Positions 31,895 to 39,434 of a stretch of DNA of 64,000 nt are shown here, in pieces. Each line of letters starts with the position of its first letter. Position 1 is the stretch's first letter. The stretch spans positions 10,592,001-10,656,000 of the forward strand of contig NZ_CP107942.1 of NCBI RefSeq assembly GCF_036053395.1. The letters are read 5' to 3'. Position numbers and translations under genes: made by a program. The notes under the pieces are model-generated. The model searched no databases and was not told the DNA's origin. It worked only from the letters and a program-made list of their open reading frames with translations. This DNA comes from Actinoplanes sp. NBC_00393. GTDB taxonomy: Bacteria; Actinomycetota; Actinomycetes; Mycobacteriales; Micromonosporaceae.

Positions 31895-33127
31895 TCAGGG
31901 GTTGGCGCCCAGCCAGGAGCGGACCTGGGCGGCCTCGTCGTCGGTGAGGTTGATCGAGGCGGCCTCGGCGCGGTTCAGCACGTTGGCGGCGAAGGCGACG
32001 GCGATCTCGGCGGCGTCCGGCGGTGGCTGGCGGTAGAGCGGGGCGCCGCCGAACGCCGTACCCCGGGTGACGAAGGCGATCGCCGCCCGGCTGACGTCCA
32101 CGCCCTGCTCGGCCAGCCGGTCCCGGGCCCAGCGGGTGGCCTCGGTCAGGTTGAAATGGTGCGAGGCGGCGTAGTCGGCGAGCGCCTGGTACACCGCCGG
32201 CCACATCTCCTGCGGCAGGCGGGGCAGGCTGAGCAGCGCGCTGAGACGGCCCACCGGTTCCGGGGTGGGGCCGGCCGCACCGGACGACTCCGGCGGGTCG
32301 TGCCGGCTGTCGTCCCAGACGAAATGGTTGGAGAACTTGGCGTGCGCCAGGCCGAGGCTCTCCAGGGCGCGGACGAAGCCGCCGTAGCTGAACCAGTTCG
32401 TCTGGTCGACGCTCGGGCCGAGCTGGCGGCGCAGGTCGTGGGCGAGCGAGGCCAGGTTGAGCGGGCCGGGCGCGGCGTCGTACCGCCAGCGGACCAGGTC
32501 CCGGAACTGTTCGTAGGTGACCGGGCCGTCGGACTCGCCGGGCTCCACCGCCACCGGGTCCTCGTCGCTGTCCACCGGCTCGCCCTGGACCAGCTCCAAC
32601 AGCTCCTGGCTGGTGATCAACCGGTCGGCGACGGCGATGAACGCCTCCGCCGCGTCCGACGGCGAGACGATCGTGGTCCGCCGGTCGGACCGGCGCAGCC
32701 GGACCAGCAGCGGGGTCATGTCGGAGTCACCCGACGCGATCACGAACTCCTCGTAGACCACCGGGTCGGCCAGCGCGTCCACCGCGTCGACCACCATCCG
32801 GATGTCCGCGGCGTTCTTGGTGTGGGTCAGCCGCGGGCAGTCGATCACCTCGAAGCCGGCGTTCACGAAGAACGGCCGGAACTGCGAGTAGTAGAGCCGT
32901 GGCTGACCGGCGGTGGGATCGGGGTGCGGCACCCAGCCGCCCGGGTTCATGTAGCAGCGAACGATCAGCCAGCGGCGCGGACCGTCGACCGTCAGCGTCG
33001 TGGTCAGGCGGGACAGCCAGGCGCCCGGCTCCTTGGCGAACTGGATCGCCACGTCCGGGTCCTGCTTGATGAGTCCGCTGAACACATTGTCGAAGTCGAG
33101 ATACAGAGCGGCGCGTACGCGGGCCAT
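31895..33127 (-). CDS. NYN-domain (PIN-like) protein with OST-HTH-type C-terminal region
   Basis: 410 residues, ATG at 33127. The N-terminal NYN nuclease domain (about 1-165) has conserved acids in ALYLDFDNVFSGL, DIRMVVDAVDALAD and EFVIASGDSDMTPLL. Two C-terminal helical wing domains (about 205-285, VTYEQFRDLVRWRYDAAPGPLNLASLAHDLRRQLG; and about 305-405) look like LOTUS/OST-HTH modules that bind RNA or G4 structures. The family is predicted to process or degrade RNA. No partner gene is evident. The gene is preceded by a terminator. Confidence 0.9.
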   Translation of the reverse strand: MARVRAALYLDFDNVFSGLIKQDPDVAIQFAKEPGAWLSRLTTTLTVDGPRRWLIVRCYMNPGGWVPHPDPTAGQPRLYYSQFRPFFVNAGFEVIDCPRLTHTKNAADIRMVVDAVDALADPVVYEEFVIASGDSDMTPLLVRLRRSDRRTTIVSPSDAAEAFIAVADRLITSQELLELVQGEPVDSDEDPVAVEPGESDGPVTYEQFRDLVRWRYDAAPGPLNLASLAHDLRRQLGPSVDQTNWFSYGGFVRALESLGLAHAKFSNHFVWDDSRHDPPESSGAAGPTPEPVGRLSALLSLPRLPQEMWPAVYQALADYAASHHFNLTEATRWARDRLAEQGVDVSRAAIAFVTRGTAFGGAPLYRQPPPDAAEIAVAFAANVLNRAEAASINLTDDEAAQVRSWLGANP

Positions 33128-34126: not shown

Positions 34127-36280
34127 TCAATCTCCGGACATCGAGGCGCCCACGCCGTTGCCGGTGCTGAGGTACGACGTGCCGGGCAGCCCGCCGTCCC
34201 CGGCGCGCGCCCCCTCGGCGACCGACGCGTCCGTGGACCCGAAGGCCGACTCCGACCAGGCGCCCTCCTGCCAGCTGTTGTTGTTCGCCTTGGCGCCGGT
34301 GGACAGGCCGAACTCGCCCTGGGTGTTGCCCAGCGCCACGTTGTTGCGCAGCACGGCCGGGGCGGTGGTCATCGCGAACCCGAGGTTGACGTTGCGGAAC
34401 GCGGTGTTGTTGCCCAGCTCGATCGCGGCGGAATTGCCCTCGTCGACGAAGCCGTGCCCGTTGTTGCCCCAGGAGGCGTTGTGGCGCACCCGGTGCGCGG
34501 CGGCTGCGGCCGGGCTGCCACCGCCGACCGCGAAGCCGTTCGCCCCGTTGTCGTACGACCAGTTGTACTGAACCGACACCGCACTGCCGAACGCGCCCAG
34601 GTTGATCCCGTCGCCACCGTTGCGGAACGAGCGGTTGCCGCGCAGCACGTTCCCGTCGCCCTCGCCGAACTGCACGGCCAGCCCGGAGCCCCGGTTGGCG
34701 TAGAAGTCGCTGTCCAGAACCTGGTTGCCGGCCGTCCCGGCGTTGCGCAGCATCAGCCCGGAGCCGGCCGCGTCGTGCACGCTCAGCCGCTGGAAGATGC
34801 TGTTCGTGCAGGCCAGGCAGGTGTACGCGGCGTTGCGTGCCCCGGAGATCTCGAGGTCCCGAACGGTCCAGAACGACGACTCCTGGGTGATCGCCCACTC
34901 GTCGGCCGGGATCGCCGAGGCGTCGACGACGGCCCGCTCACCGCGGTAGCCGCTGAGCACGATGGGCTGCGACGAGGTGCCGCTCGTCGTGATCGCGATC
35001 GGGCTGGTGGGGCGGTGGGTTCCGCCTCGCAGCGCGATCGTCTGGCCCGGCCGGACCACCGCCACGGCCTTCGCCAGGCTCGCGAACGGGCGGCCCAGGG
35101 AGCCGTCGCCGTCGTCCGAGCCGGTCGGGGAGACGTAGATGTCGGCCGCGTTGACGCCGAGACCGGCGACGGGGCGTGCGGTCGGGGCGGCCTTGCTCGC
35201 CGCGGGCGCGGCACTGGCGCTTCGGCTCGCGGCCGGTGCGGGCCCGGCCGAGGCCGGGGGCTGGGCGGGGACCGTGGCCGGCGCCGGGGCCAGCGCGCCG
35301 GGAGTGTCCAGGTCGGCGGGGGTGTGGAGTACGGCGTACGCGAAACCGCCGCCCGCCGCGACCGTCACCGCGGTGGCCGCCGCCAGGGTCTTGTGGTGCA
35401 CCAGCGATTGCACGTGCGCGACCAGAGACGTGCCGCCGGCCAGGGCGGCCGGCGCGGTCACCGCCGCGCCGCCGTGCACGGCCGCCTGGATCCCGGCGAG
35501 CAGCGCGGCCGGAACCGGCAGCGCCACCACGCCGAGCAGCAGCTGCTCCGGCGTGATCAGGCCACGCTGGTGGATCCGGCACTTCGGGCAGTCCCGGACG
35601 TGCCGGGCCAGGCGCTTGCGCCAGACCGAGTCGGTGCTGCCGTCCCAGAACCGGACGTGCTCCGCCAGCTCCGGGCAGATCGGCTTGGCCCGCAGCGACC
35701 GGACCACGCTGCGGCTCAGGTCGAGCTGCGCCTTCATCCGCTGCACCTTGACCGCGGCGTGGTTCGGCTTCACACCGAGCGCGGTGGCCAGCTCGGCGCG
35801 GGTCAGGTCGCCGGACGCCTCCTGCCACCAGAGCGCCAGCAGCCGGCGGTCGCTCTCGTCCAGCCAGCGGCCGGCCTCGGCCAGCTCGCGGCGCTGCTCG
35901 GTGACGACCAGCTCGGCGGTGGTGCGCTCGGCGAAGTCGCCGACCGGGTCGGCCACGTCGACCGGCTCCGGGTGGCGCCGGGACAGGGTCATCTTGCGCG
36001 TGCGCAGGTGCATCTGGACCCGGCGGTACGCGATCGCGATCAGCCAGGAACGGAAACGATCGGGGTCGCGCAGGGAACCGAGGCCGCGGAAGGCCTGCAG
36101 CATGGTGTCCTGGACCAGGTCGTCGACGTCCGGGTGGCCGTCCAGCGCCCGGCCGATGATGTTGTAGATCAGCGAGAGGTGACCGGCGATGAGCTGATCC
36201 ACGGCGCCGACACTGCCACCCTGTGCGGCGCGGACCAGACTTCCGACATCGTCCGCGACCGCAGTCTGACTGTCTGTCAC
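34127..36280 (-). CDS. ECF sigma factor fused to zinc-finger, TM anchor and extracellular beta-helix
   Basis: 717 residues from GTG at 36280 (GGGAGAGA upstream; an ATG at 36307 adds nine). Order: sigma-70 region 2 (about 20-90, DVDDLVQDTMLQAFRGL, then RSWLIAIAYRRVQMHLR), sigma-70 region 4 (about 125-185, ATALGVKPNHAAVKVQRMK), a zinc-finger-like HVRDCPKC (HxxxCxxC, about 225-232), hydrophobic helices (about 245-275 and 295-317), a Pro/Ala linker (about 320-375) and a right-handed beta-helix (about 378-717; YVSPTGSDDGDGSLGRPFASLAKA opening; many NN and G-N-x-F coils). This looks like a one-protein sensor: DNA-binding sigma inside, polysaccharide-lyase-like domain outside. Family members with ECF-ZAS-TM fusions are known; the beta-helix end is the unusual part. 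Confidence 0.9.
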   Translation of the reverse strand: MTDSQTAVADDVGSLVRAAQGGSVGAVDQLIAGHLSLIYNIIGRALDGHPDVDDLVQDTMLQAFRGLGSLRDPDRFRSWLIAIAYRRVQMHLRTRKMTLSRRHPEPVDVADPVGDFAERTTAELVVTEQRRELAEAGRWLDESDRRLLALWWQEASGDLTRAELATALGVKPNHAAVKVQRMKAQLDLSRSVVRSLRAKPICPELAEHVRFWDGSTDSVWRKRLARHVRDCPKCRIHQRGLITPEQLLLGVVALPVPAALLAGIQAAVHGGAAVTAPAALAGGTSLVAHVQSLVHHKTLAAATAVTVAAGGGFAYAVLHTPADLDTPGALAPAPATVPAQPPASAGPAPAASRSASAAPAASKAAPTARPVAGLGVNAADIYVSPTGSDDGDGSLGRPFASLAKAVAVVRPGQTIALRGGTHRPTSPIAITTSGTSSQPIVLSGYRGERAVVDASAIPADEWAITQESSFWTVRDLEISGARNAAYTCLACTNSIFQRLSVHDAAGSGLMLRNAGTAGNQVLDSDFYANRGSGLAVQFGEGDGNVLRGNRSFRNGGDGINLGAFGSAVSVQYNWSYDNGANGFAVGGGSPAAAAAHRVRHNASWGNNGHGFVDEGNSAAIELGNNTAFRNVNLGFAMTTAPAVLRNNVALGNTQGEFGLSTGAKANNNSWQEGAWSESAFGSTDASVAEGARAGDGGLPGTSYLSTGNGVGASMSGD

Positions 36281-36546
36281 CGTCCCGCTCTCTCCCGCCG
36301 CGTACATCGACGCTCATGCCTGGCTGGGATCAGGGGTGCGTCCGCTAGCTGCGGCAATGTGCGACTGGCTGATGATCGAGCCGTATCGTGGCACAGCCCC
36401 GGAGGGCTGTAAAGCGAGGATGGTCACGCTCCCATCGAGAGGTTTCGTGGTTTCTCGGGCTCACCTGGGGTTACTTCAGCCGGTCTTGTCATACCCCCGG
36501 CCTAGTCTTCGGGGGTGTGGTGTGACGGGTGGGCGGGGGAGGGCCG
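36281..36546. other. Divergent control region, sigma fusion / DNA polymerase IV
   Basis: 266 bp without a gene. Contains CAGCCC-CGGA-GGGCTG hairpin at about 36396 and ACCCCCG-N10-CGGGGGT inverted repeat at about 36494-36517. I do not see a LexA box of the actinobacterial type. GGGGGAGGG at about 36535-36543 is the ribosome site of the polymerase gene. Confidence 0.5.
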
Positions 36547-38229
36547 ATGAGGGCCGAGCCGAGCATCCTGCACGTCGACCTGGACGCGATGTTCGCCGCG
36601 GTGGAGCAGCGAGACAAGGTCTCTCTGCGCGGCCGGCCGGTCATCGTCGGCGGGGTGGCCGGCCGGGGCGTGGTGTCCACTGCGTCCTACGAGGCACGGG
36701 CGTTCGGTGCGCGCTCCGCGATGCCGATGGCCCAGGCCAGGCGGCTCTGCCCACCCGGTACGGCGTATCTGTCACCGCGATTCGCGGCGTACAAGATGAC
36801 CAGCCAGGTCGTGATGGCGCTGCTGGCCGAGGTGAGCCCGCTGGTCGAGCAGGTGAGCATCGACGAGGCGTACCTTGACTTGGCCGCCGGCGACCACGAT
36901 CTGAGCCCGCGCGGCGTCACCGAGCTCGCCCTGCGCCTGAAACGCGAGATCGCCGAGGCTACCGGCGGCGTCACCGGGTCGGTCGGCGTGGCCTCGTCCA
37001 AGCTTCTCGCCAAGATCGGCTCGGAGCTCAACAAGCCGGACGGTCTGACGGTGGTCCCGGCCGGCGGCGAGCTCACGGTCCTGCACCCCCTGCCGGTGGG
37101 CCGGCTGGGCGGCGTCGGCCCGGCCACCGAGCAACGCCTGCACCGAGCCGGAGTTCGTACGGTCGGGCAGCTCGCCAAGGTCCCCCTGGAAGACCTCGTC
37201 GACTGGTTCGGGGTGGCGCACGGCGGCGGGCTGTACCGTCTGGCCCGCGCCGACGACGACCGGCCGGTGGTGGGGGAGCGGGAGGCCAAATCGGTCTCGG
37301 CGGAGGAGACCTTCGACGTCGACCTCACCGATGCCGGGCGGCTCAACCGGGAGCTGGATCTGCTGTCCGCCCGGGTCGCGGGCCGCCTGCGGGCCGGCGG
37401 CATCACCGGGCGGACCGTGAACATCAAGGTCCGCCACCATGACTTCACCACGGTGACCAGGGCGATCACCCGAGACCAGCCGACCGACGACCCCCGCCTG
37501 GTGGCCCAGCTGGCCCGGCGACTGCTCGCCGAGATCGACACGTCGGGCGGGATCCGGTTGCTCGGCGTGGGCGTGTCGACCCTGGCGGATTTCGCGCAGG
37601 ACGATTTGTTCTCGTCGCTGCCGGAATCCGCGCGGGGCGAGCTGTTCTCGTCGCTGCCTGAATCTGCGCGGGGCGAGCTGTTCTCGTCGCTGCCGGAATC
37701 CGCGCGGGACGAGCCGTTCTCGTCGCTGCCGGCTTCGTTGTGGTCGGCGGCGGTTCCGGCCGGGCCGGCAAGCCTGGCGGACGAGGGGTTCGACCATGTC
37801 TTTGCCGGCCCGCCGGGTGATCCGCCGGAGGCGGCGGATTCTGGGCAGCAGCGTGCTCCGGAAGCCGGTCGGCCAAGGGACCAGGCATCGGACCTGACGG
37901 AGCGGATGAGCCCGGCCGGGGTTTTGGTCGGCGGGCCGGGCTCCCCGGTGGCTGGTGGGCCGAGTTCCGCCGGGCCCGCACTGCAAGATCGGGAGTCTGT
38001 GGATACGACCGGGACAGACCGTGCGGGGGCGGCGGTGGTCTGGCGGCCGGGACAGGACGTGTGGCATGAGGAGCGCGGCGCGGGCTGGGTTTGGGGGAGC
38101 GGGCTGGGCCGGGTCACGGTCCGGTTCGAAGGGCCGCACACTCCGCCGGGGCCGGTGCGGACCTTTGCTGCGGACGATCCATGCCTGCGGCCCGCGGACC
38201 CACCCGATTGGCGGGAGAAGGAGGGGTGA
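36547..38229 (+). CDS. dinB: DNA polymerase IV with extended C terminus
   Basis: 560 residues, ATG at 36547. Y-family polymerase core (about 1-350): ILHVDLDAMFAAVEQRD, STASYEARAFGARSAMPMAQARRLCP, VSIDEAYLDLA, SVGVASSKLLAKIGSELNKPDGLTV and the little-finger domain. After that lies a 12-residue tandem repeat (about 352-399; FSSLPESARGEL), then a Pro/Gly-rich linker and a C-terminal module VVWRPGQDVWHEERGAGWVWGSGLGRVTVRFEGP (about 500-550) present in other actinobacterial DinB proteins. It bypasses lesions without proofreading. Confidence 0.93.
   Translation: MRAEPSILHVDLDAMFAAVEQRDKVSLRGRPVIVGGVAGRGVVSTASYEARAFGARSAMPMAQARRLCPPGTAYLSPRFAAYKMTSQVVMALLAEVSPLVEQVSIDEAYLDLAAGDHDLSPRGVTELALRLKREIAEATGGVTGSVGVASSKLLAKIGSELNKPDGLTVVPAGGELTVLHPLPVGRLGGVGPATEQRLHRAGVRTVGQLAKVPLEDLVDWFGVAHGGGLYRLARADDDRPVVGEREAKSVSAEETFDVDLTDAGRLNRELDLLSARVAGRLRAGGITGRTVNIKVRHHDFTTVTRAITRDQPTDDPRLVAQLARRLLAEIDTSGGIRLLGVGVSTLADFAQDDLFSSLPESARGELFSSLPESARGELFSSLPESARDEPFSSLPASLWSAAVPAGPASLADEGFDHVFAGPPGDPPEAADSGQQRAPEAGRPRDQASDLTERMSPAGVLVGGPGSPVAGGPSSAGPALQDRESVDTTGTDRAGAAVVWRPGQDVWHEERGAGWVWGSGLGRVTVRFEGPHTPPGPVRTFAADDPCLRPADPPDWREKEG
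37600..37743 (+). repeat. 36-bp in-frame tandem repeat inside dinB
   Basis: Four copies of 36 bp encode (D/G)(D/E)LFSSLPESAR, the last diverged (DEPFSSLPASLW). Copies begin at about 37600, 37636, 37672 and 37708. The frame is preserved, so the linker is extended by 12 residues per copy. Confidence 0.9.
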
Positions 38230-38522: not shown

Positions 38523-39434
38523 ATGAGTGATGTGACTGACCACGCAGGGGCAGGCGCTGGGGCTGGGGCTGGGGACACTGTGGCCGGCGTTGCTGCTGCC
38601 ATCGGGACGTGGGTTGAGCGGCTGCTGCCGGACCGGGAACGGGCGGGACTGCTCGCGGGGGCGCTGGGTCGGGAGTTCAGGGGCGCGACCGAGCGGATCA
38701 CCGCGGAGAACTGTCGGCGGATCGAGAAGGTGTGTCACGCCTACTCGCGGCATTTGACTCTTGAGTTCCGGCGGGGCGGTGGGCTCGTACCGGATCAGGG
38801 GCAGCCGATGGGCTGGCCGCCGCCGGACGGTGCGGCCGTTGCTCGGGCCGGGGGTGGGGTGGCGTCGGTGGAGCGGCATGCGGACGTCGCGGTGGTGCGG
38901 GTCGACAGCCTGGAGGCCTGGAAGTTTGCGGGGCCGTTCGTCGAGGAGGCGCTCGGCCGTGCACGTGACTGCCGGGGCGTGATCCTCGACCTGCGCCGCA
39001 ACGGGGGTGGTGACATGGAGACCCTCGCCCGGTTCGCCAGTTTCGTCCTCGGGCCCGAGGTGGTTCCACTGGCGACGGTCACCACCAACGAGCGGGTCGA
39101 TGAATACCGCACGATTCCGATGGGCTCGGCAAAGACAGGCGCAGTGCTGGTCAGCGAGCGCACCTACTCGTCCGGGGAGGCGCTGGCGTACGTCCTGCAG
39201 AACCGCGGCGTCGCGGTGGTCGGCCGGCGCACTGCCGGGGCCGCGGACCATTGTGTTCCGGTGCGCGTCTCGGCGTACGTCGTCGCTCTTGTTCCCTATG
39301 GGGTGGTCCTTGATCCACTGACCGGGAGCAACTGGGAAGGCACCGGCGTGATCCCGGATATCGAGGTCGCCGAAGGCGACGAGATGGCGGCCGCGATGCT
39401 TGCTTGTGCAGATGGTGCACGTCCCGGGGCTTGA
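38523..39434 (+). CDS. S41-family (tail-specific) peptidase-like protein
   Basis: 303 residues, ATG at 38523. After a helical N-terminal part (about 1-90; similar to the IRBP-type leader), the C-terminal crotonase-like S41 domain has VILDLRRNGGGDMETLARFAS and the nucleophile segment VSERTYSSGEALAYVLQ, then GVVVLDP-type strands. No PDZ domain and no signal peptide, so it is probably cytoplasmic. Ser is present in the nucleophile position; whether the Lys of the dyad is conserved I cannot tell. The gene is monocistronic. Confidence 0.85.
   Translation: MSDVTDHAGAGAGAGAGDTVAGVAAAIGTWVERLLPDRERAGLLAGALGREFRGATERITAENCRRIEKVCHAYSRHLTLEFRRGGGLVPDQGQPMGWPPPDGAAVARAGGGVASVERHADVAVVRVDSLEAWKFAGPFVEEALGRARDCRGVILDLRRNGGGDMETLARFASFVLGPEVVPLATVTTNERVDEYRTIPMGSAKTGAVLVSERTYSSGEALAYVLQNRGVAVVGRRTAGAADHCVPVRVSAYVVALVPYGVVLDPLTGSNWEGTGVIPDIEVAEGDEMAAAMLACADGARPGA

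Follow-up and report, generated by a model that had tools for sequence, protein, structure and literature searches.

Does a sigma factor joined to a polysaccharide-lyase-type beta-helix correspond to a genuine single protein and, if so, what would such a protein sense and which genes would it control? These questions are raised by an open reading frame of the window, that is, the whole 64,000-nucleotide stretch of Actinoplanes DNA analysed here.

A sigma factor and a beta-helix in one reading frame

The fusion ORF occupies positions 34127..36307 of the minus strand, the strand on which all features of the protein described below are located. It encodes 726 residues from an ATG at 36307, with no internal stop over the 726 codons, or 717 residues from a GTG at 36280. 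The GTG is the likely start because a database protein 100% identical to the fusion (P0003) is 717 residues long. The uninterrupted frame joining the sigma factor to the beta-helix, reported in the preliminary description, is upheld on the minus strand. A forward-strand reading of 34127..36280 was rejected, its translation being unrelated.

A homologue search with the fusion protein scored 8000 candidates, of which 461 had E values up to 1e-5 and 120 were listed. All 120 listed homologues (of 461) contain the Pfam sigma and helix domains within a single protein, at 50-100% identity and with at least 95% coverage of the query. The nearest named homologues among the matches listed belong to Actinoplanes. 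An assembly artefact can be dismissed, since the sigma and helix parts are united in 120/120 listed homologues. A frameshift joining two genes at about 35150, which had been raised as a possible flaw, is excluded, and the beta-helix, whose conservation had been left to be checked, is indeed a constant part of the listed proteins.

The sigma domain spans residues 35-195 (35723..36205). It matches the sigma70-ECF profile TIGR02937 above cut-off (68.7 bits, 4.5e-19, profile positions 2-161 of 165), and on this ground the protein is classed as a predicted ECF sigma factor. Region 2 is also recognised by Pfam (Sigma70_r2, residues 39-105, 35993-36193, 1e-11). Region 4 is supported by the span of the TIGR02937 match and by a weak HTH match, while none of the Pfam region-4 models scored against the fusion protein. 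The sigma factor had been called complete; this holds well for region 2 and is carried for region 4 by TIGR02937 and the HTH match.

The signature of zinc-binding anti-sigma (ZAS) domains consists of an upstream Cys or His plus HxxxCxxC. Such a motif, C211-x24-H236-x3-C240-x2-C243 (35579..35677), was read from the sequence of the fusion protein, against which Pfam zf-HC2 did not score. The four residues are invariant in five paralogues and in a 60-row homologue alignment, and the HxxxCxxC zinc finger noted earlier is thus present as a predicted ZAS motif. We also located the motif in 199 of 200 distinct proteins of the wider family described below. Since the motif itself was used for locating, its invariance in the alignment is the better support.

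Two hydrophobic segments follow. Segment 1 (about residues 255-276, 35480..35545) was delimited by hydropathy. Segment 2 (about residues 306-327, 35327..35392) was delimited by hydropathy and charge bias and is a probable transmembrane helix with an N-in/C-out orientation. A Pro/Ala/Ser linker, recognised by eye at residues 328-388 (35144..35326), leads to the beta-helix.

Five neighbourhood ORFs, the fusion ORF counted, were scanned with Pfam, and no anti-sigma gene was found among them besides the fusion, in agreement with the earlier remark that no separate anti-sigma gene lies beside it. A convergent 168-residue ORF beside the fusion gene gave zero Pfam matches. The divergent neighbour encodes a DinB-type DNA polymerase (36529..38229, plus strand, IMS 2.4e-40), whose C-terminal part contains an in-frame ELFSSLPESARG-like repeat. 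An NYN-domain protein (31895-33127, minus strand) and an S41-family peptidase-like protein (38523-39434, plus strand) are also encoded nearby.

The architecture is real, conserved and, in outline, known. In Streptomyces coelicolor, the ECF52 protein SCO4117 is described as combining sigma, zinc finger, transmembrane, proline-rich and carbohydrate-binding domains in one protein (PMC5826349). According to the same report, ECF52 is exclusive to Actinobacteria, a proteolytic or conformational release of the sigma factor was proposed, and a truncated SCO4117 devoid of the zinc finger, the membrane part and the carbohydrate module is active. ECF48 and ECF53 are described as sigma factors with a C-terminal zinc-finger and transmembrane extension, and some ECF52/53 members have predicted glycosyl hydrolase and carbohydrate-binding domains (PMC8999054, PMC10766802). 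By these published descriptions, the fusion matches the domain order of ECF52/ECF53 (PMC5826349, PMC8999054). What differs is the sensor, which is of a new kind. In SCO4117 it is reported to be a carbohydrate-binding module (smart00776), with a role in development and secondary metabolism (PMC5826349), whereas the fusion carries a dead PL9 helix and has pectinases as predicted targets. In the passages that describe ECF48/ECF53, neither a PL9-like domain nor a pseudo-enzyme nor a pectin regulon appears (PMC8999054, PMC10766802). A search of the open-licence literature returned no PL9-like sigma fusion and no pectin regulon for such a sigma factor, a weak negative.

The PL9-like helix and its lost catalytic residues

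The right-handed beta-helix covers residues 390-713 (34169..35140). Over exactly this span, its best PDB match is the pectate lyase Pel9A (1ru4, 7.8e-23). Pfam recognises Beta_helix at residues 476-635 (2.7e-12) and gives a Pel9A-like match at residues 390-443 (2.5e-5) that falls short of the Pfam cut-off. A beta-helix of polysaccharide-lyase type had been proposed; it is confirmed and can be assigned to family PL9.

As described for PL9 catalysis, Lys273 is the base and Asp209, Asp233 and Asp237 bind calcium (PMC10992409, PMC6627557). The corresponding positions were examined in an alignment of 121 rows consisting of the fusion, 119 homologues and a paralogue of the same genome (L002); the forward reading (P0001) and the 100% copy (P0003) were dropped from the counts. 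At the place of Lys273 the fusion has A593 (34529..34531), and lysine is found in 0/121 sequences. At the place of Asp209 it has S541 (34685..34687), with Asp in 0/121. The places of Asp233 and Asp237 are taken by G565 and N569, the aspartates being kept in 21/121 and 81/121 sequences, respectively. Thus, none of the four PL9 residues is present in the fusion protein. Whereas it shares family and fold with the PL9 pectate lyases, it departs from them by the loss of Lys273 and Asp209 and by the attached sigma factor. A stand-alone PL9-like protein encoded by the same genome without a sigma factor (L007), apparently secreted as judged by eye, retains Lys273 together with Asp209, Asp233 and Asp237.

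When the comparison is extended to 34 distinct PL9-like sigma proteins, one row of which cannot be read at the residues counted, the catalytic lysine is retained by a Hamadaea protein (L102) alone and Asp at position 209 by two members. These remnants suggest that the PL9-like helix of the sigma proteins descends from an active enzyme. In view of the absence of the catalytic lysine in 121/121 sequences, the helix is probably no lyase, and the earlier idea that it cuts an external polysaccharide is not borne out. The helix also contains a CxxC (C497, C500; 34808..34819) conserved in 121/121 sequences. The pair, for which a disulphide, metal or redox role is conceivable, is missing from L007 at the corresponding position.

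Predicted promoters, pectinase genes and the proposed switch

Spaced word pairs were collected upstream of sigma genes and compared by sensor class. A bipartite promoter, TGTTRTC-N14-GCATCTAC, was discovered in this way beside orthologous PL9-like sigma genes. Within the PL9-like class, it was found at 18/40 loci, on the opposite strand only and directed away from the sigma gene. Autoregulation through this promoter was considered for the class and rejected, with 0/40 occurrences on the same strand against 18/40 on the opposite strand.

In the 11.4 Mb genome of the strain, the pattern occurs at three sites, as compared to 0 for the reversed control, and a wider form of the pattern gave the same three sites again. 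Allowing two mismatches led to 27 sites as compared to 30 in the reversed control; because this count is no higher than that of the control, weaker sites were not used. The three sites lie 55 to 89 bases upstream of genes for a family-11 rhamnogalacturonan lyase (RGL11_C, 9e-112), a pectinesterase (2.4e-53) and a pectate lyase (7.4e-38), all of them ricin-lectin-bearing and apparently secreted. Across 60 genomes of the genus, that of the strain counted, 44 sites were found in 28 genomes, and again 0 in the reversed control. Downstream of them are 24 pectinesterase, nine rhamnogalacturonan lyase and two pectate lyase genes. Four sites precede DinB beside the sigma gene, and the targets of the other five, initially unassigned, were identified as two GH43 proteins, a ricin-lectin arabinofuranosidase, a CBM2-bearing pectate lyase and one protein without any match. 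Altogether, pectin- or arabinan-degrading enzymes, three arabinan-type included, are encoded downstream of 39/44 sites. In the stretches examined, 16/44 sites adjoin a PL9-like sigma gene. Since the sigma-adjacent sites gave the motif, the 28 distant targets are predictions, and 27/28 of these distant sites precede pectin- or arabinan-degrading enzymes. With predicted promoters preceding pectinases at 3/3 sites in its own genome and 39/44 in the 60 genomes, the PL9-like sigma factor qualifies as a putative pectin-responsive regulator having a well-supported predicted pectinase regulon.

The intergenic region of the window itself contains no TGTTRTC-N14-GCATCTAC site. The best match within the window has three mismatches, which is chance level, and is found elsewhere. 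The copy studied here is therefore tied to the promoter through its orthologues and the three sites of its genome. Before the sigma gene, a different promoter-like element, TTTACA-N17-CACGAT (36385..36413, minus strand), has one match in the genome. Elements of this housekeeping-like type are found at 26/40 PL9-like loci and 1/168 other loci, and a narrower pattern at 7/40 PL9-like loci.

The distribution of the sites was compared with that of the sigma factor in 36 genomes of the genus, of which 18 have a PL9-like sigma and 18 do not. Sites are present in 16/18 genomes with the sigma and in 1/18 without it (Fisher p 6e-7, kinship ignored). The exact site is absent in 2/18 genomes with the sigma, and the lone site in a sigma-less genome is the one lacking a recognised target. 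Pectinesterase is encoded by 18/18 genomes with the PL9-like sigma and by 9/18 without it; among these nine, the site occurs in 1/9. Thus, the sites follow the sigma factor rather than the pectinases.

Gene neighbourhoods were also compared. Pectinase genes are found in the examined flanks of 18/34 distinct PL9-like loci as compared to 0/132 loci from the remaining sensor classes (the flanks being shorter for some of these), and in 16/19 named PL9-like loci with longer flanks, representing nine genera. DinB adjoins 12/34 PL9-like sigma loci, and in many relatives a pectinesterase gene takes the DinB position or lies between sigma and DinB. In A. utahensis (L039), sigma, site, pectinesterase and DinB are arranged in this order, as they are at a second locus (L258). 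In the window, the missing pectinesterase between sigma and DinB, together with the missing site, looks like a loss. The second PL9-like sigma of the genome, the paralogue L002 (G000:C1:3515443-3518997), has a ricin-lectin pectinesterase directly downstream, in tandem. The motif is absent upstream of L002, and a search for it at the pectinesterase, also in relaxed form, found no site. L002 may read a different promoter, or it could read the three sites of the genome.

The fusion, the lost catalytic residues, the motif with its pectinase targets, the gene linkage and the co-occurrence were all computed directly. We consider it probable that they reflect a switch for pectin utilisation made of one transmembrane protein, with a PL9-derived receptor outside, an ECF sigma factor inside and a pectinase regulon as output. 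From these observations we infer that the sigma factor reads the TGTTRTC promoter, that the helix lies outside the cell, what its ligand is and how the sigma factor is released. Outside the cell, a helix derived from a PL9 pectate lyase and devoid of the catalytic lysine would receive pectin or its fragments. Inside, the zinc anti-sigma-type domain of the same chain would hold the sigma factor. Upon ligand binding, a conformational change would make the zinc domain let go, or proteolysis would cut the chain, leaving the sigma factor free or active. It would then transcribe pectinases from TGTTRTC-N14-GCATCTAC promoters; in its own genome, the outputs would be the rhamnogalacturonan lyase, pectinesterase and pectate lyase described above, and the pectinase products may feed back. 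The switch for an external polysaccharide advanced in the preliminary description is thus retained in part, the predicted regulon and the neighbourhood being pectin-degrading, whereas its cutting activity is abandoned. If the proposal is true, an enzyme has been turned into a receptor inside a transcription factor. As sensor, promoter sequence and targets are proposed together, a single reporter assay could address both the signal and the response.

The weak point of this mechanism is the membrane topology, the two segments being equal in hydropathy. In the PL9-like class, the mean Kyte-Doolittle values are 1.82 for segment 1 and 1.80 for segment 2, and both segments might cross the membrane, in which case the helix would be cytoplasmic and would sense no outside polysaccharide, an arrangement that had been named as fatal to the idea. 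We give this little credence: segment 1 contains two prolines, several sister sensors belong to enzyme or binding families that act outside the cell, and in 34/34 distinct PL9-like members positive charge is greater in the N-side flank of segment 2 than in the C-side flank. This charge bias favours an outside helix domain and a single crossing by segment 2. An outside helix could, however, still be an active lyase or hydrolase processing a surface polysaccharide, its catalysis driving the signalling. The clear PL9 homology, the lysine of the distant member L102 and the motifs retained by the sister GH128 sensors (see below) speak for such activity; with the Lys273 and Asp209 positions lost in 121/121 sequences, it seems very improbable. 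It is also highly implausible that the helix has a structural function or anchors the protein to the cell wall and that the sigma factor in truth responds to envelope stress, as do ordinary ECF systems. Versions of the protein with CAP and DUF domains and without obvious sugar ligand would fit such a role, whereas the predicted targets and neighbours of the PL9-like sigma are pectin genes, not stress genes.

A further explanation leaves the receptor aside and attributes the promoter to another sigma factor or regulator, the PL9-like sigma being a mere neighbour or a component that works in parallel within the same pathway. The window copy without an adjacent motif and the presence of L002 in the genome are compatible with it, and the link between sigma and promoter was drawn by sequence comparison. 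The co-occurrence data nevertheless make this explanation unlikely, as the sites track the sigma factor (16/18 against 1/18) and occur in 1/9 of the pectinesterase genomes devoid of it. Moreover, the bipartite promoter that precedes GH128 sigma genes is related and has its -35-like half in common with the PL9-like one, which would be expected if every sigma factor recognised its own variant.

The nearest working analogue of the proposed pectin switch is SigI3-RsgI3 of Clostridium thermocellum, whose working principle is alike (PMC4711584). In SigI3-RsgI3 and SigI6-RsgI6, a membrane anti-sigma factor is reported to carry an outside pectin-binding or GH10 domain (PMC4711584, PMC6056542), and pectin genes such as pl11 are among those with SigI3-dependent promoters (PMC4711584). 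As described there, SigI-RsgI systems consist of two proteins, with another sigma family and PA14/GH10 sensors, whereas the present system is a single chain with a PL9 sensor. Instead of a separate anti-sigma gene beside the sigma gene, one ORF holds both. For IutY, a sigma factor fused to its own anti-sigma, cutting has been described (PMC8999054).

One chassis with exchangeable sensors

The part of the protein that precedes the sensor, here termed the chassis, recurs with other C-terminal domains. Five chassis proteins are encoded by the genome of the strain, two with a PL9-like helix, one with Glyco_hydro_cc (3.4e-52), which we take to be GH128, and two with AbfB. Solved structural relatives were found for the GH128 domain. 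The chassis model matched in 36/60 genomes, namely that of the strain, 34/35 same-genus relatives and 1/24 genomes from other families of the order. Among the best 80 of 401 loci, the genera represented are Actinoplanes, Dactylosporangium, Catellatospora, Kineosporia, Hamadaea, Kitasatospora, Streptomyces and others. The C-terminal parts of 194 chassis ORFs, repeats included, were classed as AbfB (47), PL9-like (40), GH128 (40), CAP (35), an unnamed domain termed X3 (12), other (11) and short or cut (9), ORFs cut by contig ends being classed as short. Removal of repeats reduced 209 chassis loci to 200 distinct proteins, of which the PL9-like class accounts for 34. Ten sensors outside the main classes were scanned, and among them are Lcl_C, GH99, DUF4185 and further helix-like domains; the loci concerned include L170, L177, L197, L203, L198, L200, L201 and L204, and X3 is seen for instance at L088 and L105.

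A quick tree of the sigma and zinc domains (194 rows, 180 labelled) requires ten changes for nine sensor labels, as compared to a minimum of eight and a shuffled mean of 108.7. Sensor and sigma factor therefore mostly travel together. Supports are low, with values of 62 for the PL9-like split and 65 for the GH128 split.

With a single pattern, pairs resembling TGTTATC...CGTCTCC were found before the own sigma genes of 32/40 GH128, 13/35 CAP and 8/12 X3 loci, and before 0/47 AbfB-class sigma genes. The GH128 class has the promoter TGTTATC-N15/16-SGTCTCC, located mostly before its own sigma genes; the GH128 sigma of the strain is encoded at G000:C1:6362649-6365677 (L215, with the sigma ORF in L004). 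The GH128-type pattern was found in 56/60 genomes of the genus, with one control match in total. Among the sites listed, 30 were assigned, 20 of which precede a chassis sigma gene and ten other genes. Four of these ten were scanned: L315 encodes a GH16 protein with ricin lectin and L298 a GH64 beta-1,3-glucanase, each in a single relative, L292 a DUF1996 protein and L297 a BTAD regulator. By eye, L296 and L318 are similar to L292, as are L304 and L306 to L297; downstream of the sites at L302 and L316, no clear target was found. As the pattern also precedes genes without an obvious glucan link, the picture for the GH128 regulon is not as clear-cut as for the pectin regulon. The GH128 sensors retain the NEP and [TS]E[FYW] motifs in 38/38 cases. 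Judging from the promoter sites, the GH128-bearing sigma is likely a switch for beta-1,3-glucan or fungal walls.

Overall, we lean towards the view that Actinobacteria possess a family of transmembrane sigma switches, each a single chain with a plug-in sensor, in which one chassis would be combined with eight or more types of C-terminal domain. For two clades at least, the PL9-like and the GH128 one, this sensor would be a dead or seemingly intact copy of an enzyme acting on the very polysaccharide that the regulon of the sigma factor degrades. Each clade would have its promoter variant, the dead pectate lyase would be a true receptor, and sensor type would predict the regulon. If this holds, the outside domain names the polysaccharide and the promoter names the regulon, explaining how such actinobacteria time their attack on plant pectin or, with the GH128 version, on beta-1,3-glucan.

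The BTAD-type regulator genes at L297, L304 and L306, one of which was scanned, start within a few bases of the GH128-type match. At these three loci the spacer is also identical between genomes, and the match may be a coincidence with a conserved leader.
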